DNA of 64,000 bases, taken from positions 124,001 through 188,000 of the forward strand of contig NZ_JBBUKT010000004.1 in assembly GCF_038066715.1 (NCBI RefSeq), given 5' to 3'. The translations under genes and the position numbers were made by a program. Under the pieces are notes generated by a model. That model saw only the letters and a list, made by a program, of their open reading frames with translations. It was not told the origin of the DNA and did not search any database. Of this stretch, positions 18,229-55,625 are shown piece after piece. This stretch comes from Luteolibacter sp. Y139. GTDB lineage: Bacteria > Verrucomicrobiota > Verrucomicrobiia > Verrucomicrobiales > Akkermansiaceae. Positions within the stretch are counted from its first letter, which is position 1, and the number at the start of each line of letters is the position of its first letter.

Positions 18229-18285
18229 ATTTCGGGTGTCACAACTGGAGCCACCCGATTCAAGGTGGAGGGAGCCTTCACGATT

Positions 18286-21200
18286 ATGAAATCCATCCGA
18301 ACGCTGATCCGGGCTTTGGGAGCCTGCTGCCTCACCCTGACCCTGGCGATGGCCGGCCCCCGCGACGGGGAGTGGAAAAAGGTCGCCGAGGCGCGGGAGA
18401 AACAGCAGCCGAAGACGGCGATCGAGCTACTCGCCGGTATCGAAAAGGCGGCCTTTGCCGACGGCTCTTGGGCAGAGGGCACCCGCGCGCTGGCCTCGCG
18501 GATTGCACAGGAAGCTGCGATCGAGCGCCAGGCGCCGCCGATCAAGAAGCTCGAGGCCGCCATCGATACGGCACCCGAACAGGCCCGGCCGGTATTGCGG
18601 GCGCTGGTGGCGCGCTGGATGGCCGGCTACTATCGCGCGAATCAATGGCGCTTCATGCGGCGCAGTTCGACCGGTGCGCCGGTGGGGGACGATCTTGAGA
18701 CCTGGGATCTCGCGCGGATTCTCACGGAGATCGATGTGCGGCTGCAGCGGTCGCTGGCGGATGGTGAGGCTTTGAAGAAAATCCCGGTGGCGGATTTCGC
18801 GGAGTTGTTAGAGGCCGGTTCGCTGGGTGATGGCTTGCGGCCGACGCTGTATGACTTTGTCGCCCACTCGGCGCTCGATTTTTACTCGGCGGAGGAGGTG
18901 GCAGTGTCGCGGCCGCAGGATAGCTTCGAGATTGCGGCGGATTCGGCGGTGCTTGGCACGGCGGATGAGTTTATCGCGTGGAAGCCGGAGATCGCGGACG
19001 CGGCTTCTCCGAAGGCGCGGGCGCTGAAGATTTTCCAGGAGCTGCTGGCTTTCCATAAGGGCGACGCGGATCGCGGAGCCTTCCTGCTGGCAGATCTGGA
19101 GCGGATCCGCTGGGGTGGAATCGCGACGACCATCGAAGGCCGGGAGGCGCGGTTCGAGGCAGCGTTGCGGCGCTTCATCACGGACAATGCGGCGAGTCCG
19201 GTGAGTGCGTGGGCGCGGGTATCGCTGGCGGAGATTCTGGAGCAGAAGAAGGCGACGAAGGAGGCGTATGAAATCCTGAAAGCGGGCGTGGCTGCTTTCC
19301 CCGAGCATGCCTTCGGCAAGCTGTGCGGGAACGGGGTGCGGGAATTGGAACAGCGCGAGATTTCCCTTCAGACAGAGACGCATTGGACCCCGGCTGGCGA
19401 GGAGATCCGGGTGACGCACAAGAACCTCAAGCACGTCTGGTACCGCCTGCATGCGGTGACCTTCACGCCGGGAAAATCCACGCTGGAGGAAGACCCGCTG
19501 CCACAGCTGGGCAAGACGGCGCCAGTTCGCGCGTGGGACAGCGATCTGCCGGATGACGGCGATTTCCGCCAGCGGGAGACGCGGGTGAAGACTCCTGCCG
19601 ATCTGCCGCCGGGCTACTACGTGCTCACGGCGAGTGCGCGGGAGGACTTTTCGAAAGACGACAATACCGTGGCGGCGGTCGGAGTTCATGTGACCTCGCT
19701 GGCGATGACCGTGAGGGGCAACCGAGCGGGCGGCATCGAAGGGATGGTGGTCGATGCGGTCACCGGTACGCCGCAGGCTGGTGTGGAGGTGGGTGTGTGG
19801 GTGGAACGTGAATCGGTGCCTCTCACCCGCAAGCTATCGGCGACGACCAATGCGGAAGGTCGCTTCGAGTTTAAGGACGAACTCAACAGCCGCTACCTGG
19901 CGGTCGCCCAGCGAGAAAAGGATCGGGCGGTGGTGCGAGGTTGGGGCGGCGGTGTCCTGCCCCCGCCTCCAGAAGAGCGGCGGCAAGCAGTCTTCTTCAC
20001 GGACCGGGCGATCTATCGGCCGGGACAGACGATTCACTTCAAGGGCATCTGGTGCGAGGCGGACGTGAATGGCGGAAAATACCGCACGCTCACGAAGAAA
20101 GGCGGCTCGGTGATCTTGCGCGATCCGAATGGCAAGGAGGCCGGCAAGCTGCCAGTGACGACCAACGAGCAGGGATCATTCAGCGGCACGTTTACCGCGC
20201 CGGAGGGCAGTGTGCTGGGAATGTGCACGATCCAGTTGGAAGGCGTGCCGGGTGTGGCTCGGGTGCGCGTGGAGGAATACAAGCGGCCGAAGTTTTTCGC
20301 GGAGGTGGATGCGCCCAAGGAGCCGGCGACGCTTGGGAAGAAGGTGAGCGTGAAAGTACGAGGAGAATCGTACACCGGTGCGCCGGTCGATGGGGCGAAG
20401 GTTTCGTGGAGGGTCACTCGAATGACGCGACTTCCCGTTTGGCTGCGCTGGTGCTGGTGGTGTCCGCCGATTTCAGGAGATTCGGAAGAGATCGGCCATG
20501 GAACTGTTGAGACCGCTGCGGATGGCTCGGTCATGATCGAGTTCACTGCCAAGCCCGATACTTCGGTGCGGGAGGACGTGGAGCCGGTCTTCGATTTTCA
20601 GGTCACCGCCGATGTGACTGATGCCAATGGCGAGACGCGTTCGGCGACGCGCATGGTATCGGTGGCCTATACTGCGCTGAAGGCGGATCTCGAGGCGGAT
20701 GAATGGCTCGAAGCTGGCAAGGAGCTGGAGTTGCGGGTAAAGACGACTTCACACGATGGCGAAGGCCGCGCGGCGAAGGGGGTGATCAAGATTCACCGGC
20801 TGAAGGAACCCGCCACTTGTCCGCGGCCGGAGGAGGAAGACGAGTCGGGGCAAGATCCTGAGAACAAGCAGGACCCCGCGCGTCCATCGATCGATCCGGA
20901 CAAGTGGGAACCTGGTGAGGTCGTGGCCGAGCTGCCGGTGGAAACGAATGGCGAGGGCAAGGGGTCCGTGAAGCGCGCGCTCGAGGCGGGAGCCTATCGC
21001 CTGATCTATGAGACGAAGGATGCGAACGGGCGTGCGGTGAAAGCGATCCTCGGCATCCAGGTCGTCGCGCCGGACGCGGCGGATTTTCCGACGATGATGC
21101 CGTTTTACACCCGCTTGTCCGAGGAGTCGGTCGAGCCGGGCAAGGAGGCGGTGCTCTTGTGGGGTAGCGGTCACGACAAGGCGCGGGCCTTCATCGAATG

Positions 21201-24200
21201 GCGGATGGGGGGCAAGGTTTTGAAACGCGAGTGGTCGGCCGAAGGGCGGACCCAGCAGGTATTCCGTTTTCCCATCGAGGAGAAGTATCGCGGCGGAATC
21301 TCGGTCGCGATCACGCAGGTGACGATGAACCGCCTGAACCAAATCGATCACTCCGTGGAGGTCCCGTGGACGAACAAGGAGCTGAAGCTGCGCTGGGAGC
21401 ATCTCGTTTCGAAGCTTGAGCCTGGTGCGAAGGAAACGTGGACCGCGGTGATCGAGGGGCCGGGTGGTGAAGCCGTCGCAGCGGAAATGGTGGCGACACT
21501 CTATGACGCTTCGCTCGATGCCTTCGCGCCGCACTCTTTCCAGAACCTAGCGAACCTGTTGCGCCGGGAGTCGAGCGATCCGCCCTATTGGCAATTCAGC
21601 AGCGAGCAACGGGGCTTCGAAGAACGATGGGGCTTTCCGGGGTGGAATCGTTTCGATCCCGGCGAACCGTTCCGGCGTTTTCGCGATGAGCTTGAAATTT
21701 ACGGGGGCGGCGTCTCCTTCGGAAGAGGTGCTGGTATTGGGCATGGCGTCCGCTTTGCGATGGGCGGGGCTGTCGCCAAGTCACGGTTCCGCTCCAATGC
21801 CGACTTCTTCGCCGAGAGTGCCGGGGCGCCCGCGACTCTTTCCGCCCTCCCCATGCCGGCGGCGATGGATGCCAGCGACATCACGACCGCCGGCAATCGT
21901 TCCGGGCTGGGTGCGATCAACCGCAACAGCATCGATGCCATCCTTAATAACAGCGGTCGCGAGCAGCAGGCGCCAGCGGTGGACGTGGGGCAGATCACTG
22001 CGCGCGCGAACTTGCAGGAGACCGCATTCTTCTTTCCCGATCTCACCAGTGGTGACGATGGCAAGGTGCGGATGACTTTCACGATGCCGGAGGCTCTGAC
22101 GAAGTGGCGCTTCCTCGGCCTCGCCCATGACAAGGATCTGCGCAGTGGTTTGTTAGATGGTGAAACGGTGACGGCGAAGGACCTGATGGTGCAGCCGAAT
22201 CCGCCGCGATTCCTGCGCGAGGGCGATGAGCTGTGGTTCACGGTGAAGATCACCAATACCAGCGATAAGGAGCAGGCGGGAACCGCGCGGCTCACGCTGG
22301 CGGATGCGGCGACGGATGCGGACAAGACGGCTGCGCTCGGTGTCGCCGCGCCGGATCAGCCCTTCACCGTGCCGGCGAAGGGAAGCCGCAGTGTGAAGTG
22401 GAAGCTGGTGGTGCCGGATGGTGCGGGCTTCCTGCGCTACAAGGCGGTCGCGAGCAGTGGTGCGCTGAGCGATGGTGAGGAGGGTTGGCTGCCGGTGATT
22501 CCGCGACGGATCCTCGTCACGGAATCGCTTTCGCTGCCGATCCGCAATGCGGGGACGAAGGCTTTCGAATTCGAGAAGCTGGTGAAGAGCGGAGGCTCGC
22601 CGACGCTAGAAAATCGCTTCTTTCACGTGCAGGTCGCTTCTCAGCCGGCGTGGTATGCGGTGATGGCGCTGCCTTACCTGATGGAGTTCCCGCACGAGTG
22701 CTCGGAGCAGACCTTCAATCGTTACTATGCGAATGCGCTGGCCCGGCATATCGCAGGGTCTGATCCGAAGATCCACAAGGTCTTCGATCGTTGGAAGGCT
22801 GGTGGTACGGCGCTGGATAGTCCGCTGGAAAAGAATGCGGATCTGAAGGGCATCCTGCTGGACGAGACGCCATGGTTGCGCGAGGCGAAGGATGAATCGG
22901 CGGCTCGCCGACGGGTGGGACTCTTGTTCGATGACAACCACATGGATCGCGAGCTGGAGAAGGCGATGGCGAAGCTTTCGGCGATGCAGCTTGGCAATGG
23001 TTTGTGGCCGTGGTTCCCGGGCGGTCGTGGCGACAAGTACATCACGCGCTACGTCGTTACCGGTTTCGCACGTTTGCGTTCGCTGGGCGTGGCGACGGAC
23101 ATCACGGCGGCCATGAAGGCGCTGGGCGCCTTGGATGCCGATCTTACGGAGCGCTACGAGTATCTTCGCGAGCACAGGCTGCTGGACCACGAGAATCTCG
23201 ATGCCGAGGTGGCCTTCCACCTCTACATGCGGACCTTTTTCCTGAAGGACAAGGCGCTGAATGCGGACGACAAGGTGGCGTTCGATTACTTCGCCGGCCA
23301 AGCGCGCAAGCATTGGACCAAGCTGGGCAGCCGGATGTCGCGCGCGCATGTCGCGCTGGCTCTGAATCGCATCGGCGACAAGGAAGTGCCGGGCTTGATC
23401 ACCCGCTCGCTGAAGGAGCATGCGACGGTGGAGGAAGAACAGGGGATGTATTGGAAGGACAGCGAGGGCGATGGCTGGTGGTGGTGGCAGGCGCCGGTGG
23501 AAACGCAGGCGATGATGATCGAGGCTTTCCGCGACATCGACGCTGACACCAAGGCGGTCGAGGATTGCCAGGTTTGGTTGATCAAGCAGAAGCAGGTTTC
23601 CAACTGGAAGACCACCAAGGCGACTTCCGATGCGGTTTACTCGATCCTGCGGAGCGGGAAGAACTGGTTGGCCTCGGATGCCCTGCTGAAGATTTCACTG
23701 GGCGGCACGGAGGTGAAGCCGGAGAGCGTGGAGGCTGGCACGGGCTTCTATGAAAGCCGCTTCGTGGGTGAAGCGGTGAAGCCGGAACTCGGGAAGATCG
23801 AGCTGAAGAAGGAAGACGAGGGCGTGAGCTGGGCCAGCGTGCATTGGCAGTATCTGGAGGACATGGCGAAGGTGACCTCGCATGGCCAGAGCGCAATGAC
23901 GCTGGAGAAGTCACTCTTCCTGCGGAAGAACACCGACAAGGGGCCGGTGCTGGAACCGCTGAACGGCGCGGTGAAGGTGGGCGATGAGCTGGTGACCCGC
24001 GTGGTGCTGAAGAACGATCGCGCGATGGAGTATGTCCATCTGAAGGATCTTCGCGGCAGCGGCACGGAGCCGCTGAATGTCCTCAGTGGCTACCGTTGGC
24101 AGGATGGTTTCGGCTACTATGAGGTGACCCGTGATACCGCGAGCCACTTCTTCATCGATCGCTTGCCACCCGGGACGCACGTCTTCGAGACGAGCGTGCG

Positions 24201-24306
24201 GGTTCAGCATGCGGGGAAATATCAGACGGGTATTGCGGAAATCGGGTGCATGTATGCGCCGGAGTTCAATGCGCACAGCGGCAGCCTGGAGGTGACGGTG
24301 GAGTGA
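18286..24306 (+). CDS. alpha-2-macroglobulin family protein with intact thioester
   Basis: 2006 residues from ATG 18286 (GGAGGGAG 11 nt upstream). A signal peptide is present (IRALGACCLTLTLAMAG). Order: ~400-residue N-terminal helical/MG region; an Ig-like segment (GIEGMVVDAVTGTPQAGVEV); the MG2 domain (FFTDRAIYRPGQTIHFKGIW, ~res 568); further MG domains; a Gly/Ser/Ala/Asn-rich linker (~1138-1238) where a protease bait region would sit; the A2M domain (LQETAFFFPDLTSGDDGKVR, ~1242); and the thioester motif PHECSEQTF with Cys ~1472 (CxEQ). A helical thioester domain and C-terminal beta domains follow. Bacterial A2Ms trap proteases in the envelope. No pbpC neighbour, and no clear lipobox: the Cys residues fall inside the hydrophobic core. 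Likely periplasmic or secreted. Confidence 0.9.
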   Translation: MKSIRTLIRALGACCLTLTLAMAGPRDGEWKKVAEAREKQQPKTAIELLAGIEKAAFADGSWAEGTRALASRIAQEAAIERQAPPIKKLEAAIDTAPEQARPVLRALVARWMAGYYRANQWRFMRRSSTGAPVGDDLETWDLARILTEIDVRLQRSLADGEALKKIPVADFAELLEAGSLGDGLRPTLYDFVAHSALDFYSAEEVAVSRPQDSFEIAADSAVLGTADEFIAWKPEIADAASPKARALKIFQELLAFHKGDADRGAFLLADLERIRWGGIATTIEGREARFEAALRRFITDNAASPVSAWARVSLAEILEQKKATKEAYEILKAGVAAFPEHAFGKLCGNGVRELEQREISLQTETHWTPAGEEIRVTHKNLKHVWYRLHAVTFTPGKSTLEEDPLPQLGKTAPVRAWDSDLPDDGDFRQRETRVKTPADLPPGYYVLTASAREDFSKDDNTVAAVGVHVTSLAMTVRGNRAGGIEGMVVDAVTGTPQAGVEVGVWVERESVPLTRKLSATTNAEGRFEFKDELNSRYLAVAQREKDRAVVRGWGGGVLPPPPEERRQAVFFTDRAIYRPGQTIHFKGIWCEADVNGGKYRTLTKKGGSVILRDPNGKEAGKLPVTTNEQGSFSGTFTAPEGSVLGMCTIQLEGVPGVARVRVEEYKRPKFFAEVDAPKEPATLGKKVSVKVRGESYTGAPVDGAKVSWRVTRMTRLPVWLRWCWWCPPISGDSEEIGHGTVETAADGSVMIEFTAKPDTSVREDVEPVFDFQVTADVTDANGETRSATRMVSVAYTALKADLEADEWLEAGKELELRVKTTSHDGEGRAAKGVIKIHRLKEPATCPRPEEEDESGQDPENKQDPARPSIDPDKWEPGEVVAELPVETNGEGKGSVKRALEAGAYRLIYETKDANGRAVKAILGIQVVAPDAADFPTMMPFYTRLSEESVEPGKEAVLLWGSGHDKARAFIEWRMGGKVLKREWSAEGRTQQVFRFPIEEKYRGGISVAITQVTMNRLNQIDHSVEVPWTNKELKLRWEHLVSKLEPGAKETWTAVIEGPGGEAVAAEMVATLYDASLDAFAPHSFQNLANLLRRESSDPPYWQFSSEQRGFEERWGFPGWNRFDPGEPFRRFRDELEIYGGGVSFGRGAGIGHGVRFAMGGAVAKSRFRSNADFFAESAGAPATLSALPMPAAMDASDITTAGNRSGLGAINRNSIDAILNNSGREQQAPAVDVGQITARANLQETAFFFPDLTSGDDGKVRMTFTMPEALTKWRFLGLAHDKDLRSGLLDGETVTAKDLMVQPNPPRFLREGDELWFTVKITNTSDKEQAGTARLTLADAATDADKTAALGVAAPDQPFTVPAKGSRSVKWKLVVPDGAGFLRYKAVASSGALSDGEEGWLPVIPRRILVTESLSLPIRNAGTKAFEFEKLVKSGGSPTLENRFFHVQVASQPAWYAVMALPYLMEFPHECSEQTFNRYYANALARHIAGSDPKIHKVFDRWKAGGTALDSPLEKNADLKGILLDETPWLREAKDESAARRRVGLLFDDNHMDRELEKAMAKLSAMQLGNGLWPWFPGGRGDKYITRYVVTGFARLRSLGVATDITAAMKALGALDADLTERYEYLREHRLLDHENLDAEVAFHLYMRTFFLKDKALNADDKVAFDYFAGQARKHWTKLGSRMSRAHVALALNRIGDKEVPGLITRSLKEHATVEEEQGMYWKDSEGDGWWWWQAPVETQAMMIEAFRDIDADTKAVEDCQVWLIKQKQVSNWKTTKATSDAVYSILRSGKNWLASDALLKISLGGTEVKPESVEAGTGFYESRFVGEAVKPELGKIELKKEDEGVSWASVHWQYLEDMAKVTSHGQSAMTLEKSLFLRKNTDKGPVLEPLNGAVKVGDELVTRVVLKNDRAMEYVHLKDLRGSGTEPLNVLSGYRWQDGFGYYEVTRDTASHFFIDRLPPGTHVFETSVRVQHAGKYQTGIAEIGCMYAPEFNAHSGSLEVTVE

Positions 24307-30969: not shown

Positions 30970-31623
30970 ATGAAGTGCCCCCGCTGCGTGCAAGTGATCC
31001 ACCGTGGGGCGGGTCTGTGCCCGCACTGCGGATTTGGCATCGCGGAAATGGATGCGCGGCATGGGAAGGATAATGTCTCGCTGCGCCGGCTGGCGGATGT
31101 CGCGGGCCTGATGCGCAGCCGTGAGCGCGGCAAGGTGCAGTCGGCGCTCGATGGATTTTCCCGGCGCTTCCCGCAGTTGTTTTTCGCGGTGTACACCGGC
31201 TCGGCGCAGGGCGGGGGAAATCTGCGGCAGTTCGGATTCTGGCTTTTGAATCGCGCAGCCTTCGAGGACGTGCCGGTGGACCGTCCGAATGAGGCGGGCA
31301 TCCTGCTGGTGATCGATCCCGAATCAAAGTCGGCGACGCTGACCTGGGGCTATCATCTCGATCCCTTTTTGACGGAGGAGGATACCTTCGTCTGCCTGAG
31401 CCGCGCGCACGCCTATTTCATCGAAGGACGCTTTGCGGATGGAACCGTGGTGCTTGCCGAGCAGCTGGGGAAAATCCTGCGCAAGCGAGCTGCCCAGGCA
31501 CGTCGTGATCCGGAGAAATTCGAGCGCAAGGTGGCACCGCCGCCGCGCACCGGGGAGATCGCGCGGAGAATCCGCGAGGGACATCGGCAGATGCCGGTGA
31601 AATCGACGGAGGTGATTCCGTGA
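30970..31623 (+). CDS. TPM-domain protein with N-terminal zinc ribbon
   Basis: 217 residues from ATG 30970 (an upstream in-frame start at 30919 is possible). The N-terminus MKCPRCVQVIHRGAGLCPHC has two CxxC pairs (Cys 3, 6, 17, 20), a zinc ribbon. The middle matches the TPM (TLP18.3/Psb32/MOLO-1) fold: SRRFPQLFFAVYTGS, GFWLLNRAAF, AGILLVIDPESKSATLTWGY, FIEGRFADGTVVLAEQLGKI. TPM domains are usually exported, so a cytoplasmic zinc-ribbon form is unusual. The C-terminus is basic and probably disordered. The gene is coupled (4-bp overlap) to the membrane protein gene that follows. Confidence 0.75.
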   Translation: MKCPRCVQVIHRGAGLCPHCGFGIAEMDARHGKDNVSLRRLADVAGLMRSRERGKVQSALDGFSRRFPQLFFAVYTGSAQGGGNLRQFGFWLLNRAAFEDVPVDRPNEAGILLVIDPESKSATLTWGYHLDPFLTEEDTFVCLSRAHAYFIEGRFADGTVVLAEQLGKILRKRAAQARRDPEKFERKVAPPPRTGEIARRIREGHRQMPVKSTEVIP

Positions 31624-32630
31624 AGATGAAGAGCCTGGTTTGGATGCTCTCGGCCGGATTGGCTGCGGGCGCGGTGAAGGCACCGCTGCCGGAGTGGAGC
31701 CCCGCCGACAAGACGGCGCTGGAAAAAGGCGAACTGGTGCCGGGGCTGGCGCTGCTGCGACAGGATCCCGCGGAGGAACAGGCCGGCGCGAAAGTGCCCC
31801 AGCCGACGCCGGAGGAGCTGGTGGAGAAGGAAAAGGCCTCGCCGGATGTGCCGGAGAAGTACTGGGATGCTTACTTCGGCGAGCGGCCCACGTCATTCCT
31901 CGTCGATCCCCAGGGACTGCTGGGCACGAAGGACACGCGGGACCGTGAGAGCTTCCTGAAGTACCACTCGGGTGACTCGCACGTGGACCTGTTCGTTTAC
32001 CTTTTCGACGGTCACCAATCGATCCCCTCGGAAGTGCGCGAGGAGGAAATCGTGGAGCGGTTCTTTTCCGAAGGGAAGCCGGCGGTAGTGGTCTACTACT
32101 ACCTCGGCGCGCCGCAGAAATCGGACATCTACGTGAGCCCGCAGCTCAGTGACGCGGTGTCCGCGGCGGAGCAGCGGCGGGCGCTGACGAGCTCGGTGGA
32201 AGAGGCCTTGGAAAAGCCGGACTCGATGGCGCAGTTCGAGGCATTCTGCGTGCAGCTTTCGATCCGCATTTTCTGGATGGAGAAGGCCGCCGGTCTGGTG
32301 ACCGAGGAGGCGACGCCGGCACCACTGCCGCGTCGTTCGAAGTCCCATGAGGCAGAGAAGAAGGAATCCCCGGAAATCGTGCTCCGCGCCAAGGAGTTGG
32401 GGGCTCAATATGGGCCGCCCGCGGGGATCATGGCGGGTGCGATTCTGACGGTGGTCGCGGGGCTGGCGCTGGTGCGGAGCCGCGCGCGGCATCGTTTCCC
32501 GGTGTTTGAAGTCGCGCCGCGGATGGGTGGTGCCCACGCGGCGGGGATCGGGGCGGTGATTTCTTTTGGAAGCACCACCCAGTCTCCGTCCTCGCAGCGG
32601 AATGACGTGCCGGACTACCTCGGACTCTGA
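31620..32630 (+). CDS. membrane protein encoded with the TPM protein
   Basis: 336 residues from GTG 31620, which overlaps the preceding stop (GTGA); ATG 31626 is an alternative. A signal peptide is likely (SLVWMLSAGLAAGAVKA). A ~220-residue alpha/beta region follows (SHVDLFVYLFDGHQSIPSEV, KPAVVVYYYLGAPQKSDIYV), then one membrane helix (GIMAGAILTVVAGLALV) and a short basic tail ending VPDYLGL. The FFSEGKPAVVVYYYLG region looks like a distant TPM-like fold. Probably forms an envelope complex with the TPM protein; function unknown. Confidence 0.65.
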   Translation: MKMKSLVWMLSAGLAAGAVKAPLPEWSPADKTALEKGELVPGLALLRQDPAEEQAGAKVPQPTPEELVEKEKASPDVPEKYWDAYFGERPTSFLVDPQGLLGTKDTRDRESFLKYHSGDSHVDLFVYLFDGHQSIPSEVREEEIVERFFSEGKPAVVVYYYLGAPQKSDIYVSPQLSDAVSAAEQRRALTSSVEEALEKPDSMAQFEAFCVQLSIRIFWMEKAAGLVTEEATPAPLPRRSKSHEAEKKESPEIVLRAKELGAQYGPPAGIMAGAILTVVAGLALVRSRARHRFPVFEVAPRMGGAHAAGIGAVISFGSTTQSPSSQRNDVPDYLGL

Positions 32631-33287: not shown

Positions 33288-34283
33288 ATGACGGATTACT
33301 CCTCTGGCCTGCTGCTTGGCGCGTTCACCGGTTTGCTGTTGTTGTTTTCAACGCAAGCCGAGGCTGCCCGGCCCTATATCGATGACAAGAAGGCGCCGGA
33401 GAACCGCCATGACCTGGAGGTGATCCAGAAGCATCTGATGGACACCCTGCCTGCGGCTCGCAAGGCGACGGTGTGCATCGACCTCGGCGACGGCTCCGGC
33501 AGCGGGGTGGTGGTGTCCCCGGAAGGGCTGATCCTCACCGCCGCGCACGTGACCGGCGGGGTGGGGAAGGAATTCACCGTGATTTTCGAAGACGGCAAGA
33601 AGGTGAAGGCCGAGTCGATGGGAGTGATTTCCACCACCGACTGCGCGATGGCGCGGATCACCGAGCACGGCACCTGGCCGTATGTGGAGATCGACCGTGA
33701 TGATTCCTCGAAGCTCGGCGACTGGGTGTATTCGCTCGGTCACTCCGGCGGCTTCGACAAGGAGCGCGGCGTGAACGTGCGCCTCGGCCGGCTGGTACAG
33801 GTGAAGGATTCCACGGTGCAGTCGGATTGCTCGCTGATCGGCGGCGATTCAGGCGGCCCGCTATTCGACCTGAATGGCAAGCTGATCGGCATCCATTCAC
33901 GCGTCGGCCAGCGCACGCAGGAGAACATGCACGTGCCGGTGCGCGAGTTCCTGAAGAACTGGGATGCGCTGCAGAAGAGCGAATTCGTCGGCGATGGTCC
34001 CTTCGCGAAGAGGCCGGAAAAAGGGAAGGGATTCCTGGGGATCGGCACCGAGCCGCGGGCCGAGGGCGGCCTGAGCGTGCACAAGGTGGGCCGGGAATCT
34101 CCTGCGGAAAAGGCCGGCCTGAAGGCGGGCGATGTCTTGCTCAAGATGGACGGCGTGGACCTGAAAACGAAGGAACAGTTCCAGGATTTGCTGAAGGAGA
34201 AGGCGCCCGATGACCGGGTGGCCCTCGAACTGCTCCGTGAGGGCAAGACCGAAACTCTCACCCTGCGACTTGGTGAACGCTAA
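33288..34283 (+). CDS. HtrA/DegP-type S1C serine protease with one PDZ domain
   Basis: 331 residues. The start ATG 33288 gives a signal peptide (LLLGAFTGLLLLFSTQAEA). The trypsin-like domain keeps the full triad: His87 in LTAAHVTGG, Asp118 in STTDCAMARI and Ser188 in GGDSGGPLF. One PDZ domain follows (FLGIGTEPRAEGGLSVHKVG, PAEKAGLKAGDVLLKMDGVD). It should act as an envelope quality-control protease. Its stop overlaps the start of a paralogue with a ruined active site (11-bp overlap), so the two are made together and may form hetero-oligomers. Confidence 0.9.
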   Translation: MTDYSSGLLLGAFTGLLLLFSTQAEAARPYIDDKKAPENRHDLEVIQKHLMDTLPAARKATVCIDLGDGSGSGVVVSPEGLILTAAHVTGGVGKEFTVIFEDGKKVKAESMGVISTTDCAMARITEHGTWPYVEIDRDDSSKLGDWVYSLGHSGGFDKERGVNVRLGRLVQVKDSTVQSDCSLIGGDSGGPLFDLNGKLIGIHSRVGQRTQENMHVPVREFLKNWDALQKSEFVGDGPFAKRPEKGKGFLGIGTEPRAEGGLSVHKVGRESPAEKAGLKAGDVLLKMDGVDLKTKEQFQDLLKEKAPDDRVALELLREGKTETLTLRLGER

Positions 34284-35280
34284 ATCCATCGCCTTCATCG
34301 TGCTGCTGGCCACCCGGATGGCCACGGCGGCGCAGACGCTCGAAACGACCTACCGCACGAACGGCGCGACCGTTCAGGCGACCTTCGAGTCCGTGCGCGC
34401 GGTGCTGCAGGATTGCAGCGCCGTGATTCAGCGCGGGCGGACGGAGATCGCCTACGGCACGGTGATGTCCGCCGATGGCTTCATCCTCACGAAGGCCAGC
34501 GAGATCGGCGATGGGAATGGCATCACGGTCACCGTGGGCGAAAAAGTTTATCCCGATCCAGAACTGGTTTCCACCGATCCTACCTGGGACGTGACGCTGC
34601 TGAAGATCCCGGCTTCGGACCTCAAGCCGGTTTCCCTGGCGCTCGATCAGCCTGATCCTGCCCGTGGCACGTGGGTGATCGCCAATGGCGCGACCACGCG
34701 GATCCACCGCCGCGTGCAGATCGGTATCATCGCCGCCACTGCCCGTGAGATTCCCCACGAGGGAGGACCGGTGCTCGGCGTCGCCTTCGAGGAAAAGAGC
34801 AAGAAGCTCGTCGTCACCCAGGTCGCTGAAAAGAGCGGTGCCGCGACTGCTGGCGTTGAGAAGGATGATGTGCTCCTGCGGGCCGATGGCGAGGAGATCG
34901 CCAGCGCGGAAGTGCTGGGCGATATCATCGGCAAGCACCACGTGGGCGATCAGGTCACCCTGACCGTCGAGCGCGCGGGCAAGACGATGGAGATGAAGAT
35001 CGAGCTGAAGGGACGCGTGGATGTCTTCGGCGACAACCCGGATGAGATGAGCCGGAATGACATGATGAGCGGCCGTTTCTCCGAGCGCCGCAGTGGTTTC
35101 CCGCGGGTCATTCAGCACGATATCATTGCGGACCGCCAGCGGATCGGCGGCCCGGTGCTGGATCTCGACGGCCGTTGCCTCGGAATGAACATCGCCCGCG
35201 CGAATCGCGCCGAGACGTTTGCGATTCCGGCGAGTGATTTGAAGAGCCTGGCGGACCGGCTGATTTCGCAGGCGAAGTGA
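34273..35280 (+). CDS. pseudoprotease paralogue of HtrA with internal PDZ
   Basis: 335 residues from GTG 34273; the signal peptide is SIAFIVLLATRMATA. The first half of a trypsin-like fold is present (GTVMSADGFILTKASEIGDG, DPTWDVTLLKIPASDLKPVS), but the catalytic His position (TAAHV in the neighbour) reads TKASE. A PDZ domain follows (KSGAATAGVEKDDVLLRADG). The second half of the trypsin fold comes after it (RIGGPVLDLDGRCLGMNIAR, ETFAIPASDLKSL), with the nucleophile motif GDSGG changed to QRIGG. So the PDZ is inserted within the protease fold, and both His and Ser are lost. It is likely a regulatory or substrate-binding partner of the active protease. Confidence 0.8.
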   Translation: MNAKSIAFIVLLATRMATAAQTLETTYRTNGATVQATFESVRAVLQDCSAVIQRGRTEIAYGTVMSADGFILTKASEIGDGNGITVTVGEKVYPDPELVSTDPTWDVTLLKIPASDLKPVSLALDQPDPARGTWVIANGATTRIHRRVQIGIIAATAREIPHEGGPVLGVAFEEKSKKLVVTQVAEKSGAATAGVEKDDVLLRADGEEIASAEVLGDIIGKHHVGDQVTLTVERAGKTMEMKIELKGRVDVFGDNPDEMSRNDMMSGRFSERRSGFPRVIQHDIIADRQRIGGPVLDLDGRCLGMNIARANRAETFAIPASDLKSLADRLISQAK

Positions 35281-50516: not shown

Positions 50517-53500
50517 CTATTCGGTGACCTCGATGCTGATGAAGAGAGGCTGGGATACCGGAGCAGGCCATTCCACGGTCGTTTCATAGAGGCCGGTGCC
50601 GGGGTTGAATGACTCGCCTGCCATGGGGACTGGCGACCAGTCGATGAGGTTGGACGAACGCCTTACCTGGTAATGCAGGTCCGCGCCTGCTTTCGGATAG
50701 GCGACGGTGACCATTCCGGTGGAAGTATTCCTGGTCACCAGCGGATAGCGCGCTTGGGTTCCGGACTTGGGAGGCGTGCCGAAGGCGAACTCAAGGAAGT
50801 TCACCACACCGTCCTTGTCGTAGTCATCCTGTGCTCCGCTGTTGGCGGGTTGGCCGGGACCGAAGTTTTCCTGCTGGTAAGCGGCATAGCCGGAAGCGAC
50901 CGGGAAGATCTGCACCGGGGTGAAGGTGGCGTTGATGAGCGAAAACTGGGGAGCGGCGGTGCCCTTCTTGGTCACGACCTCGAAGCGGAGGAGGTTGTCC
51001 CCCGCGTTGAGCGTGATATTGCCAAAGTCAAAGCCGGCGGGGGTGATGCCGAGGGTTTCATCCAGGAGTTTGTTCGGCACATCCGTGCCATTGAGGACCA
51101 GCTTGACGATACCGCGGCCGGGATTCTGCCGGTAGGTGACCATCAGGTTATAAATTCCTGCCTGCTCGGCGGCGATCCTGAGGGTCACGAAATCACCCAC
51201 GGCGTCGAAGGCCCAGATCCGCGCGCCGGAGACGGTGCTGGTGGCTTCACCCGAACTGGCGACTTGGGTGAATTTGCTCCAGTCCAAGGTGGTGGGCCAA
51301 CTGGCCAGCACGGTATCCGCCTGGCGGGTGATGAAGGTGAAGGTCTCCGCGGTGCTCAAGGTCTGGCCGTAGACGTCGGCCACGCTGCCGGGGATCGTCA
51401 GGGTGTAGGAACCTCCGGGCTGCAAGTCGGAGCCGATATTGAAGACGGCCTTGCGGGGAGTGCTGGCGGATGAGTTGTAGGTGAGGGCTGGATTGCCCGC
51501 GCCAGCCAAGGTGACCGCGCCGAGCGTGGCCGGATTCACGCGGCTGTTGAAGGTGACTTCGATGGTATCGAGTCCGGGGTCCACGCCGGTGGCAGCGGTG
51601 GCCGGAGTGGTGCCGGTGATGTCGAAGCCGAAGGGGCCCTGGATGGTGAAAGAGAATTGCCGTGCGGTGCCCACCGTGGAGGTATTGGTCGCATTGGCAA
51701 CGGTGGCCGGTACGTGGATGGTGTAGGTGGCACCGAGCGTCCAATTTCCCACGATGCGATACTCCGCGATCTGCGGCGAGGGGCTGGCGAGATACTGGAG
51801 GGTGAGGCCACCGGGACCGGAGATGGTGACTTCCGTATCGAGCGTGGCCGGGTTGAAAGGTTCGCTGAAGATCACGGCGATCTTGTCCTGATTGACGGAA
51901 ACATTGGTGGCGTTGTTTTCCGGCACGGTGCCGATGGGCGCGAAGTCCTCGGTGGCTTCCAAGAGGCCCTTTTGCAGGGTGGTGGTTTTCGGATAGGCCA
52001 GGACCTGTCCGATCACGGCTCCACCTTCGAAGACGTCGACCAGCCGATAGGAAGCGGACATGTTCTGGACCATGTAATTCCGCTCGCCGCCGGCGGTCTT
52101 GAAGACGGCACTGGTGCCGATGCCAAGATGCTGGTCGGTCTGGATCGTGCCCAGGCCTTGCAGCGAGGTGAGGTAGTTGTAGAAGAACATGTTCGACTCG
52201 GTATCGGTCGCGAAGGACAGGTTGCGGCGGCGGTATTCCGCGATGACCTTGAGGGCGAATTCCGGCTCGGCGAAACCGTCGTAGCAGAGCGCGATGAGCG
52301 GCCAGGAATTGCCGCCGATGTCCTGCATGGACTTGAGCAAGCCGGTGATGCTCGCGGCACTGTCACGCGAGGAATAGTCGGCAGGATCCCAACTGTAGGC
52401 CGCCTTGTAACGGGCCCAGTCGGGGCCGGGTCCACCACCGGCCGTGTGCATGCCGGCGATCCATTGCACGAGGGAGTAGTTGGGAAGATCTGCGGAGTTC
52501 GCGGGTGGGACGAGATGAGGGTTGTCGGCGATGAGAGCGTCCGGTGTCCAGATGGCGGCGGGGAAAGTGACCTGCGCGCCGAAGGTGTCGGTGGCGGGGA
52601 AAGTGACCAGCCACTGGCCGTTCCGGTAGAGCGGGTTGTTGGCGGTTTGCCGGGCGTAGGCGGGATTGAGTTCATAGACCGTCTGGATGGCCCACTTGAT
52701 GCCATAGGTCGGCCAGCCTTCATTGATGGCGACGACGCGCTGGTCCGGATCATCGGCGGTGGGAGCGCTGTACCATTTGTTCCGGCTGTTCTGCATCGAG
52801 GTCCGCAAGGGATTGAGCGAGCCGATGGCATAGTGATCGCCGCGATACTTGAAGAGCGTGTTGAACTGGCCGCGGATGAAGTCTGGATCGCGGGCGAGGA
52901 ACATCATGTGCGGCGCATTGGGGAGCCACTGGATGCCGTAGGTGTGAGCGGGTTCGCCGGAGAAGTAGTTGGCGAAGGAGTTCCCGTTGTCGCTCATGAT
53001 GCCGTTGGTGAAGATCCACGCGGGATGGTCGGGATATTCGGAGGCGTATTTGCCGTAGCGGAACGAGTCCGGCCAGTTGCCATAGCGGAGGTTGCCGACG
53101 GCCGGTTGGCCGTTGCGGTCGAGCGGTTTGGCGGAGAAGGGGCTGCCGTGGTAGTCGCAGTAGTATTCGTAAACGGCGCGGGTCTCGATGGCGTAGCCGA
53201 AGGCGGCGGTGGCCTGGATATCGGCGGCGCGGGGATCGTTTCCGCGCAACACCTCGCCTAACAAAAACATGCCGGCCCATGCCTGGATGGACTCGGAGGA
53301 AGATTCCTGGTTATTGCCACCGCTGCCGCCCGCATAGGAGTGGCCGACCATGGGCTCGAAGGTGCGCATCCAGGGATACTGCATCTGGTTCTGGGCGTTC
53401 CGCATCGTGGTCGGGTGCTCCCAGTTCGCGTAGGCACGAGCGAGCTCCACGGCGATGTCCTTGAACTGATCGCGGAATGCCTCGTCCTCCTGCGCGAGGA

Positions 53501-55625
53501 GCGCGTAGGCGAGCGTGTAGTAGCCGTAGTGGAAATGGACGTCGGTGAAGCCGGCGAGATTGAAATCCGGCACGAAGTTATGGCCGATGATGTGACCCCA
53601 GCGATCGTTGTGGGCGAAGTAGTGGTTCTGCTCGGTGCCGTCGTAAGTGAACCAGTCGGTGAGCGAGGCTTTCAGCTCGGCCTTCAGGTTTTCATAAACG
53701 TCGGTGAGGCCAAGTTCCTTGGCCATGTGCATGGCGCGGCCATGCTTCACGAGGTTCTTGGCGCCGAAATAGGTGTCATCGCAGACGCCGTTGTTGGTGC
53801 GGTCGTAGTCGCGGAGGAGGGTCTCCATGTAGGCGGGATCGAAGCCGTCCGGGAGGTTCCGCACGGTGGGCGTGGCGAAATTCCCGAGGATGCCATTGAA
53901 GCCGTAGTTGATGGTGAAGCCGGTGGAGGCGACCGCTTCGCCGCAGCGCAAGAGGCCACGCGGGGTGGCGTATTCCAGACCTGCCACGAAGCCGAGGTTT
54001 GCCCCGGTGTCCCGGTAGTGCGGTGGCAGCCAGCCCTGGAGAACCTTGTTAGCGCCGGGTTTCAGCGAGGTGATCTGATAGCTCCAGTTCGATTGCACGG
54101 CACCGCCGGTGGGACGGGCCGGATCGTAGGCGTAGGTGACGGTGGTTTTTTCCGGACGGGCGTAGGCATAGGTGTCCAGGGTAGCGAGCTGGTTGGCAGC
54201 AAGCATGGCGCTGACCACGAGGTAATCGGAACCCGCCGTGTCCGGAAGGAAGGCGGTGAGCCTGCGGGTGGTGGAGTCGTAGGCAAAGGAGGTGCCGGCC
54301 GGGGCGTGCAGGCCGTAAAAGCGGCCGGAAACCTCAACGGACAATTTCTCATGGATGCCCAGATCCCCGCTGGAAAGCGTGGTCCCGGCCGCATTCCGGA
54401 TGACGGGGGCGACATCGAAGCTGACGCGGGGGTTCGCATTGGCCAGCTGCACCCAGGCGAAGGGCATGTTGCGGGCGAGCGAGACATCCATGGTCATGTT
54501 CGGATTGATGGAGTCGGTCTTGCGGACCTTTACCATCCAGTCCGACCAATCACGGACGAGGGCGCCGCCGGAGATGAGGCGGGAGCCGGGGCGGGTAACG
54601 GGAGAGAGCGGTTCATTGCTCAACAACATCTGGTCGACCACGATCCAAGCGCCGGTGGAATTATCCACCACGCGGATCCGCAGGCTCTGCCCGGTGCGGC
54701 CGGTGAGGTCGAAGCGCTGCCAGATCAGCGTGGTGGTGTTCGACGTGGGAGTGGTGCCACGCATCTGGCTATCCAGGACCGTGCCGGCGCTGTCGATCAG
54801 CTCGACGCGGAGCTCGGCGGTGTTTGCCTGGCCGCCGATCTGATAGTGAAGGTAGCCACGATCCACCGTGAAGGCGGGGCTGGTGACCATGCCACGGGGC
54901 GTGTTGCTATTGTCCGGGTTGATGTTCTTCGTGATCAGGAAGCGCTCGCCGGAAAAACCCGTGGGATCGAGCCCCGGGGTTTCCGCGACGTTCTTCACGG
55001 GATTGGTAATGAGGACCACGCCGGTGGCACCGGGGATGGTCGAGATCGTCCAACCAGCGGGGAGGCTGGGGCCATTGCCCTCGAAGTCCGAACCGGGGAG
55101 TGGATAGTCGGGCAGGCCGGAAGTATTCGGTTTCTCCAAGGCCTCGACGCGGAGGACGCCTCCCGTGGCGAAGCCGGTGGCAGGAGTGCCGGGTGAAGTG
55201 CTTCCGGGACCGAGGATGTGTTGAAGCTCGATGCCGGCGGCGATGAATTTGGAAGTGATGGGATACTGCCAGAGGGTGCCGCCATCGCCGCTCATGAGGA
55301 CGCTGGTCCACCAGTCGGTGGTGGGTAGGGGGCGGATGGGATTGCCAGCGGGATTGAGATTGTCCGGAGTGACGTAGATCGGCCGGGTGAATGCCTCGCG
55401 GGTGCGGCTCTCGTTGATGTCGTCGGTATCGTCCGCGGGGTTTTCGATCTGCTCGTGGGGCGGGGAGTAAGCGGCCACGGTGGCATTGCCGCCGATATTG
55501 ACGATGGGAGGTGGAGCCGTGTAGCCGGGCGCGGGGTCGGTTTCACCATTCTGTGCCCGGGCAGGAGGCAGAGCAGCGGCACATGCGAGAGCCAGGGCCC
55601 ATGAACGAAATATCCGGGTTTTCAT
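50517..55625 (-). CDS. multi-domain GH81 endo-beta-1,3-glucanase
   Basis: 1702 residues. Signal peptide SWALALACAAALPPARA. GH81 sequence starts at NPIRPLPTTDWWTSVLMSGD (~res 95), is interrupted by an inserted ~165-residue sandwich domain (~175-340), and resumes at DWSDWMVKVRK. Catalytic regions: GFTDVHFHYGYYTLAYALLA (Asp695) and GNNQESSSESIQAW (Glu774 and Glu778), matching the Asp and paired Glu of characterised GH81 enzymes. Next come two bacterial Ig-like domains (VPENNATNVSVNQDKIAVIF, TPATAATGVDPGLDTIEVTF), a CBM6/35-like module (WAFDAVGDFVTLRIAAEQAG) and a verrucomicrobial C-terminal module (DYDKDGVVNFLEFAFG). It should cut laminarin or similar beta-1,3-glucans outside the cell. Confidence 0.93.
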   Translation of the reverse strand: MKTRIFRSWALALACAAALPPARAQNGETDPAPGYTAPPPIVNIGGNATVAAYSPPHEQIENPADDTDDINESRTREAFTRPIYVTPDNLNPAGNPIRPLPTTDWWTSVLMSGDGGTLWQYPITSKFIAAGIELQHILGPGSTSPGTPATGFATGGVLRVEALEKPNTSGLPDYPLPGSDFEGNGPSLPAGWTISTIPGATGVVLITNPVKNVAETPGLDPTGFSGERFLITKNINPDNSNTPRGMVTSPAFTVDRGYLHYQIGGQANTAELRVELIDSAGTVLDSQMRGTTPTSNTTTLIWQRFDLTGRTGQSLRIRVVDNSTGAWIVVDQMLLSNEPLSPVTRPGSRLISGGALVRDWSDWMVKVRKTDSINPNMTMDVSLARNMPFAWVQLANANPRVSFDVAPVIRNAAGTTLSSGDLGIHEKLSVEVSGRFYGLHAPAGTSFAYDSTTRRLTAFLPDTAGSDYLVVSAMLAANQLATLDTYAYARPEKTTVTYAYDPARPTGGAVQSNWSYQITSLKPGANKVLQGWLPPHYRDTGANLGFVAGLEYATPRGLLRCGEAVASTGFTINYGFNGILGNFATPTVRNLPDGFDPAYMETLLRDYDRTNNGVCDDTYFGAKNLVKHGRAMHMAKELGLTDVYENLKAELKASLTDWFTYDGTEQNHYFAHNDRWGHIIGHNFVPDFNLAGFTDVHFHYGYYTLAYALLAQEDEAFRDQFKDIAVELARAYANWEHPTTMRNAQNQMQYPWMRTFEPMVGHSYAGGSGGNNQESSSESIQAWAGMFLLGEVLRGNDPRAADIQATAAFGYAIETRAVYEYYCDYHGSPFSAKPLDRNGQPAVGNLRYGNWPDSFRYGKYASEYPDHPAWIFTNGIMSDNGNSFANYFSGEPAHTYGIQWLPNAPHMMFLARDPDFIRGQFNTLFKYRGDHYAIGSLNPLRTSMQNSRNKWYSAPTADDPDQRVVAINEGWPTYGIKWAIQTVYELNPAYARQTANNPLYRNGQWLVTFPATDTFGAQVTFPAAIWTPDALIADNPHLVPPANSADLPNYSLVQWIAGMHTAGGGPGPDWARYKAAYSWDPADYSSRDSAASITGLLKSMQDIGGNSWPLIALCYDGFAEPEFALKVIAEYRRRNLSFATDTESNMFFYNYLTSLQGLGTIQTDQHLGIGTSAVFKTAGGERNYMVQNMSASYRLVDVFEGGAVIGQVLAYPKTTTLQKGLLEATEDFAPIGTVPENNATNVSVNQDKIAVIFSEPFNPATLDTEVTISGPGGLTLQYLASPSPQIAEYRIVGNWTLGATYTIHVPATVANATNTSTVGTARQFSFTIQGPFGFDITGTTPATAATGVDPGLDTIEVTFNSRVNPATLGAVTLAGAGNPALTYNSSASTPRKAVFNIGSDLQPGGSYTLTIPGSVADVYGQTLSTAETFTFITRQADTVLASWPTTLDWSKFTQVASSGEATSTVSGARIWAFDAVGDFVTLRIAAEQAGIYNLMVTYRQNPGRGIVKLVLNGTDVPNKLLDETLGITPAGFDFGNITLNAGDNLLRFEVVTKKGTAAPQFSLINATFTPVQIFPVASGYAAYQQENFGPGQPANSGAQDDYDKDGVVNFLEFAFGTPPKSGTQARYPLVTRNTSTGMVTVAYPKAGADLHYQVRRSSNLIDWSPVPMAGESFNPGTGLYETTVEWPAPVSQPLFISIEVTE

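Follow-up and report, generated by a model that had tools for sequence, protein, structure and literature searches.

Two adjacent genes of the verrucomicrobium Luteolibacter sp. Y139 encode an active HtrA-type serine protease (hereafter P1) and an HtrA-derived pseudoprotease that carries its PDZ domain inside the protease fold (P2), and because genes of these two kinds co-occur across the lineage and are sometimes fused, they probably specify a single two-component envelope protease in which P2 is the regulatory subunit. We consider it very likely that P2 partners P1 without being catalytic itself. The more specific route, in which P2 would activate P1 in trans through loop L3, is put forward only tentatively. 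The pair is located in the 64,000-nucleotide stretch of DNA that was analysed (the window), which is part of contig 4 in a genome of 7.1 Mb, and comprises the following features, given in window coordinates.

33288..34283, forward strand: P1, active HtrA/S1C-type serine protease of 331 amino acids, ATG to TAA (open reading frame listing and translation).
33498..33893, forward strand: trypsin-like domain of P1, residues 71-202 (Pfam PF13365, Trypsin_2).
33546-33548, 33639-33641 and 33849-33851, forward strand: P1 triad codons for His87, Asp118 and Ser188, respectively.
34029..34268, forward strand: C-terminal PDZ domain of P1, residues 248-327 (Pfam PF13180, PDZ_2).
34273..34283, forward strand: 11-nt overlap, with the GTG start of P2 within the end of P1, GTGAACGCTAA (sequence).
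34273..35280, forward strand: P2, HtrA-derived pseudoprotease with internal PDZ, 335 amino acids, GTG to TGA.
34417..34752, forward strand: first part of the P2 trypsin fold (barrel 1 and strands 1-2 of barrel 2), residues 49-160 (AlphaFold2 secondary structure; PF13365 at 62-158).
34489..34503, forward strand: TKASE of P2 in place of TAAHV, with Ser76 at the catalytic His site (alignment of relatives).
34588..34590, forward strand: Asp106 of P2, the catalytic Asp position, kept (98% conservation).
34744..34746, forward strand: Arg158 of P2 at the start of L3, equivalent to Arg178 of DegS, 98% conserved (alignment with E. coli DegS).
34768..35007, forward strand: PDZ domain of P2, residues 166-245, within L3 between strands 146-160 and 276-282 (PF13180; model).
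35053..35121, forward strand: segment RND-MSG-S-RRSGFP-Q-HD of P2, the joint between PDZ and barrel, residues 261-283, among them Gln281, equivalent to Gln191 of DegS (conservation).
35086..35277, forward strand: second part of the P2 trypsin fold (last strands of barrel 2 and C-terminal helix), residues 272-335 (alignment, model).
35143..35145, forward strand: Ile291 of P2 at the site of the Ser nucleophile (Val, Met, Cys, Ile, Thr, Ala, Gln or Glu in relatives).

P1 has the attributes of the HtrA/S1C proteases, namely the triad motifs TAAHV and GDSGG and a trypsin-like domain followed by a C-terminal PDZ, and the solved structures closest to it are those of DegP-like proteins, MucD and HhoA. 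The triad that the original prediction, made from the sequence of this locus, had assigned to His87, Asp118 and Ser188 is invariant in 36 aligned orthologues. The 11-bp gene overlap that it described is likewise present in the sequence, and the same GTG overlap recurs in 61 of 137 pairs of separate genes, with a 4-nt overlap in 19 of the 137. Since the N-terminal stretches of both P1 and P2 resemble, by eye, Sec signal peptides, both proteins are probably periplasmic. Clusters of flanking open reading frames consist mostly of antisense frames, and the recognisable conserved neighbours, rpoA and a photolyase, reflect synteny and give no functional lead to a substrate. Elsewhere in the window, positions 31620-32630 encode a 336-residue protein with an apparent signal peptide, one hydrophobic segment near the C-terminus and no Pfam match, and very long open frames are found at 18265-24306 (forward strand, 2013 residues) and 50517-55625 (reverse strand, 1702 residues). 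With 21 Trypsin_2 matches, the genome as a whole (G000) apparently possesses a rich set of trypsin-like proteins.

In P2, the His motif reads TKASE and the GDSGG motif reads QRIGG, as the original prediction had stated, and Asp106, which it did not mention, is retained. These substitutions are a property of the whole family. Among 157 distinct full-length relatives of P2, the His site is occupied by Ser in 149, Thr in 4, Glu in 2 and Ala in 2, and the Ser site by Val in 49, Met in 43, Cys in 24, Ile in 15, Thr in 10, Ala in 7, Gln in 5, Glu in 3 and Ser in one, this sole Ser being that of a badly aligned motif, TESTSP, in a single locus (L216). Thus, the His is missing in all 157 and the Ser in 156, the Asp is kept in 155, and none of these relatives has a full catalytic triad. 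Moreover, Lys74, two residues before the lost His (window 34492-34494), is 97% conserved in the family and corresponds to Ala in P1; it is possibly salt-bridged to the retained Asp106. Together, Cys at the nucleophile site in some members, the persistent Asp and the conserved Lys might be taken to suggest that P2 has kept enzymatic activity through a different active site, such as one with a Cys nucleophile in the fused lineage. However, the base position is never His, and the nucleophile site is variable and accepts residues such as Val, Met and Ile; such an enzyme is barely conceivable, and we rejected the idea of a hidden Cys protease on the same grounds. A recent pseudogene was rejected as well, given the open frame, the conservation across the family and the dN/dS of 0.10-0.26 (0.09-0.22 for P1).

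The order of domains in P2, namely a first trypsin half, the PDZ and a second trypsin half, is the one that had been read from the sequence alone, and four lines of analysis agree on it: Pfam matches, alignment with a Thermotoga HtrA, AlphaFold2 modelling and structural alignment. The Trypsin_2 match covers only positions 3-108 of the 144 of the profile and is followed by PDZ_2 at residues 166-245; both domains are present in all 41 members of the orthologue alignment. Residues 56-165 and the tail 278-335 align with consecutive parts of the protease domain of one Thermotoga HtrA, the PDZ lying between them, so that P2 has its PDZ inside barrel 2 rather than at the C-terminus as in HtrA. The AlphaFold2 model, built with 41 orthologues (pLDDT 90.5, pTM 0.81), forms barrel 2 from strands 134-141 and 146-160, the PDZ at 170-244, strands 276-282, 294-296, 302-309 and 315-319, and a C-terminal helix. 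By VIA-align, residues 37-334 of this model superpose on the protease domain of AlgW with Z 25.1 and 2.1 Å over 185 residues, and comparison with DegS, DegQ and DegP gives Z of about 24 (22-25 for HtrA protease domains overall). Given that the range 37-334 spans the PDZ insert, the segment after the PDZ belongs to the barrel, in agreement with its position in the AlphaFold2 model. P2 is accordingly a complete HtrA-type double barrel with an inserted PDZ; a chance PDZ match followed by an unrelated tail is ruled out by the sequence, the model and the structural alignment. Conservation across the family shows that the P2-type architecture, the loss of the residues and the arrangement of the genes are more than chance. 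The most distinctive conserved stretch of that family is the segment RND-MSG-S-RRSGFP-Q-HD, which is a candidate partner contact.

The association with an active HtrA is equally constant. Flanks could be read for 155 of the 157 P2 members (two have too little flank), and all 155 are accounted for: 137 have a separate HtrA with an intact triad directly upstream on the same strand, 16 are fused to an active HtrA (14 in one open reading frame with the active part first, two with the dead part first), one dead copy stands beside a live/dead fusion (L189) and one has its active partner on another contig (G336). In the tandem at L189 (2669-6477, forward strand), a 557-residue protein with the dead module adjoins a 753-residue live/dead fusion. 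The two dead-first fusions, L216 (2572-4482, reverse strand) and L217 (2654-4210, reverse strand), come from another class of the phylum and have the active half behind, with His in TAAHI and with GGDSGG; L217 contains an in-frame TAA ahead of its last part. On the P1 and P2 trees, the fusion state changed at least 4-5 times, without counting these reversed fusions. About 30 more natural fusions occur in the family. The fusions of about 750-900 residues at L046, L047, L048, L194, L195, L199 and L222-L250 consist of an active HtrA with its PDZ, a charged linker and a PDZ-inserted pseudoprotease, many with a coiled-coil-like tail and nearly all with Cys at the dead nucleophile site. The predicted structure of one natural live/dead fusion (713 residues, 51 alignment rows; pLDDT 86, pTM 0.71) aligns by VIA-align with known structures over individual protease and PDZ domains only, with an rmsd of 12-21 Å across longer ranges.

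The joint history of the two genes points in the same direction. When P2 was scored as absent at a best E above 1e-9 and P1 as present at E of 1e-50 or below, 164 of 195 Akkermansiaceae-type genomes contained both genes and 31, mostly small genomes of genus g3, contained neither, none of the 31 genomes without P2 being among the 164 positive for P1. Paralogous lineages of the pair are set apart by identical supported splits in the two gene trees, indicating joint duplication, and the distance matrices of P1 and P2 correlate at 0.94; because adjacent genes share their history, linkage would by itself account for this congruence, at least in part, and for some of the joint loss. Among these lineages is a second, diverged live/dead pair encoded in the same genome (G000:C5, around 402000-404050; L044 and L010), its dead part being 32% identical to P2 and having TKWSE, Cys at the Ser site and a C-terminal extension. 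That the dead paralogue serves the active enzyme, as the original prediction already proposed, is supported by its unfailing association with an intact HtrA, by repeated fusions in either order, by the shared pattern of presence, absence and duplication, and by purifying selection. An alternative is that P2 has an unrelated function, for example as a structural scaffold, and adjoins P1 only through descent by tandem duplication. There are precedents for HtrA pseudoproteases with other roles in PflC (PMC12222027) and in the metal-binding MamO (PMC4794232), but our survey found no P2 member in a genome without a P1-type gene, and fusion has occurred repeatedly and in both orders; we consider this alternative highly improbable.

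What P2 might do for P1 is suggested by the site at which the PDZ is inserted. When the P2 barrel was aligned with P1 and with DegS of E. coli (from NC_000913), the insert fell between Arg178 and Gln191 of DegS. Arg158 of P2, which corresponds to the former, is kept in 98% of 121 non-redundant members, and Gln281, which corresponds to the latter, in 97%. In DegS, loop L3 comprises residues 176-189, and in the active state its Arg178 forms an activation cluster with Thr167, Gln191 and the LD' loop contributed by the subunit next to it (PMC11642142); in HtrA1, activity is abolished by R302A, a substitution of the equivalent arginine (PMC5666011). Because the PDZ of P2 lies inside L3 and the L3 arginine is retained, we infer from these sequence comparisons that allosteric regulation is favoured over simple substrate presentation, although conservation of Arg158 and Gln281 could also reflect fold stability.

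Two further alternatives have to be weighed against this background. P2 could be a substrate adaptor or chaperone, with the PDZ and the dead cleft binding unfolded chains and handing them over while the catalytic state of P1 stays unchanged. An intact Pfam PDZ match in every one of the 41 members scanned is compatible with such a role, as are the constant pairing and fusion of P1 and P2. So is the situation in genus g3, where the active partner, of about 238-258 residues, has no PDZ match (L049, L051), and therefore the PDZ of the dead subunit is the only one left. A plain adaptor, however, would need neither a PDZ placed exactly in L3 nor a near-invariant Arg158 and Gln281, and we regard this explanation as unlikely. 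Alternatively, P2 could be a built-in inhibitor that keeps P1 at rest as long as neither a PDZ ligand nor stress has displaced it. This possibility would fit the observation that the L3/PDZ contacts of resting DegS are inhibitory (PMC11642142), since P2 fixes the PDZ in L3; yet full displacement is impossible in the lineages in which P2 is covalently fused to the active protease, and the arginine that P2 conserves is that of the active state. An inhibitor is thus somewhat less probable still, and in falling order of probability the alternatives are a substrate adaptor, an inhibitor, an unrelated scaffold and a cryptic enzyme.

The reading that we prefer, P2 as the regulatory subunit of a two-part protease, can be cast as a mechanism. 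P1 would be the catalytic HtrA subunit of the pair and P2 a dedicated, permanently non-catalytic subunit, whose PDZ would have left the C-terminus for loop L3, which in DegS-like HtrAs transmits the signal of the PDZ to the next subunit. P2 would assemble with P1; its PDZ, as can be expected from the PDZ family, might sense a peptide or a misfolded chain; and the resulting movement could be relayed via Arg158 of P2 to the LD loop at the active site of a neighbouring P1, switching cleavage on. It is conceivable, at somewhat less than even chances, that the pair is in this sense a split HtrA, with sensing assigned to the dead subunit and catalysis to the live one, the dead subunit having the PDZ built into its L3 relay and acting only in trans. 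With similar reserve, the recurrent fusions may be viewed as the repeated sealing of this allosteric switch. P1 may also work alone, because in most species it retains a PDZ and an L3 arginine of its own.

The pair resembles several known systems in part. P2 shares the trypsin-like barrel and the positions of Arg and Gln in L3 with DegS, AlgW and HtrA1, and P1 is ordinary among such proteins in sequence and domain order; in contrast to them, P2 lacks the His and Ser and has its PDZ inside L3, and a task performed there by one gene appears to be divided between two. A dead HtrA-type protein with an active HtrA-type partner is also known from magnetotactic bacteria, in which MamO is required for proteolysis by MamE, the two genes belonging to one gene island (PMC4794232). 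MamO has T225 in place of the Ser with the His kept, its C-terminal TauE transporter domain is needed for activation, and no physical contact with MamE was found (PMC4794232). P2 differs in having an internal PDZ and, with only Trypsin_2 and PDZ matched in Pfam, no TauE match; its score against the NCBIfam MamO model is 28.4 bits, with a cut-off of 800. PflC of the Campylobacter flagellar motor is likewise HtrA-derived, periplasmic and devoid of the triad, but it is a structural lattice protein with the order protease-PDZ-PDZ, and no active-protease partner is described for it (PMC12222027). Deg5 and Deg8 of Arabidopsis are two different Deg/HtrA proteins in one hetero-oligomer, as we propose for P1 and P2, but these chloroplast hetero-oligomers are built of homotrimers, and neither a pairing of dead with live subunits nor an inserted PDZ is described for them (PMC4877387). 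SpoIVB (S55) is a PDZ-regulated, trypsin-like protease of clan PA, in which the PDZ precedes the protease rather than interrupting the barrel as in P2 (PMC6581720). Against the NCBIfam SpoIVB model, P2 scores 21.4 bits, with a cut-off of 305.25, and matches in the PDZ region 185-244 only. The S41 (CTP) proteases are also regulated by a PDZ and have another protease fold; the S41 matches listed for P2 in NCBIfam all fall in the PDZ (168-246) and below the cut-offs. A P2-like architecture was found neither in two surveys of PDZ domains and proteases (PMC6411480, PMC2605481) nor in the other open-licence literature searched. A dead HtrA barrel that has both a PDZ in L3 and an active partner throughout is seen in none of the compared systems.

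Strong hits to P2 come from the Akkermansiaceae-type family f1 (with Haloferula, Luteolibacter and Roseibacillus as named relatives), from all seven sampled members of family f2 of the same order, from several further families of the class and from family f79 of another class of the phylum. Among 387 genomes spread over the phylum, only 38 have P2. Confirmed hits in genomes that bear a name number 273, of which the best 80 all have verrucomicrobial titles, and in a viral library only general trypsin and PDZ matches were found. In the open-licence literature that was searched, the P2 family is described nowhere.

HtrA proteases control the quality of envelope proteins, and the crossing of the PDZ signal between subunits has been studied in homotrimers, in which each subunit is both sensor and enzyme. 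If a dead subunit indeed carries the sensor in the relay loop, these roles are separated in the P1/P2 pair, and activation between subunits would become directly testable. Furthermore, the P2 family, a conserved feature of Akkermansiaceae-type Verrucomicrobiota and probably also of Akkermansia of the gut, would gain a probable function.
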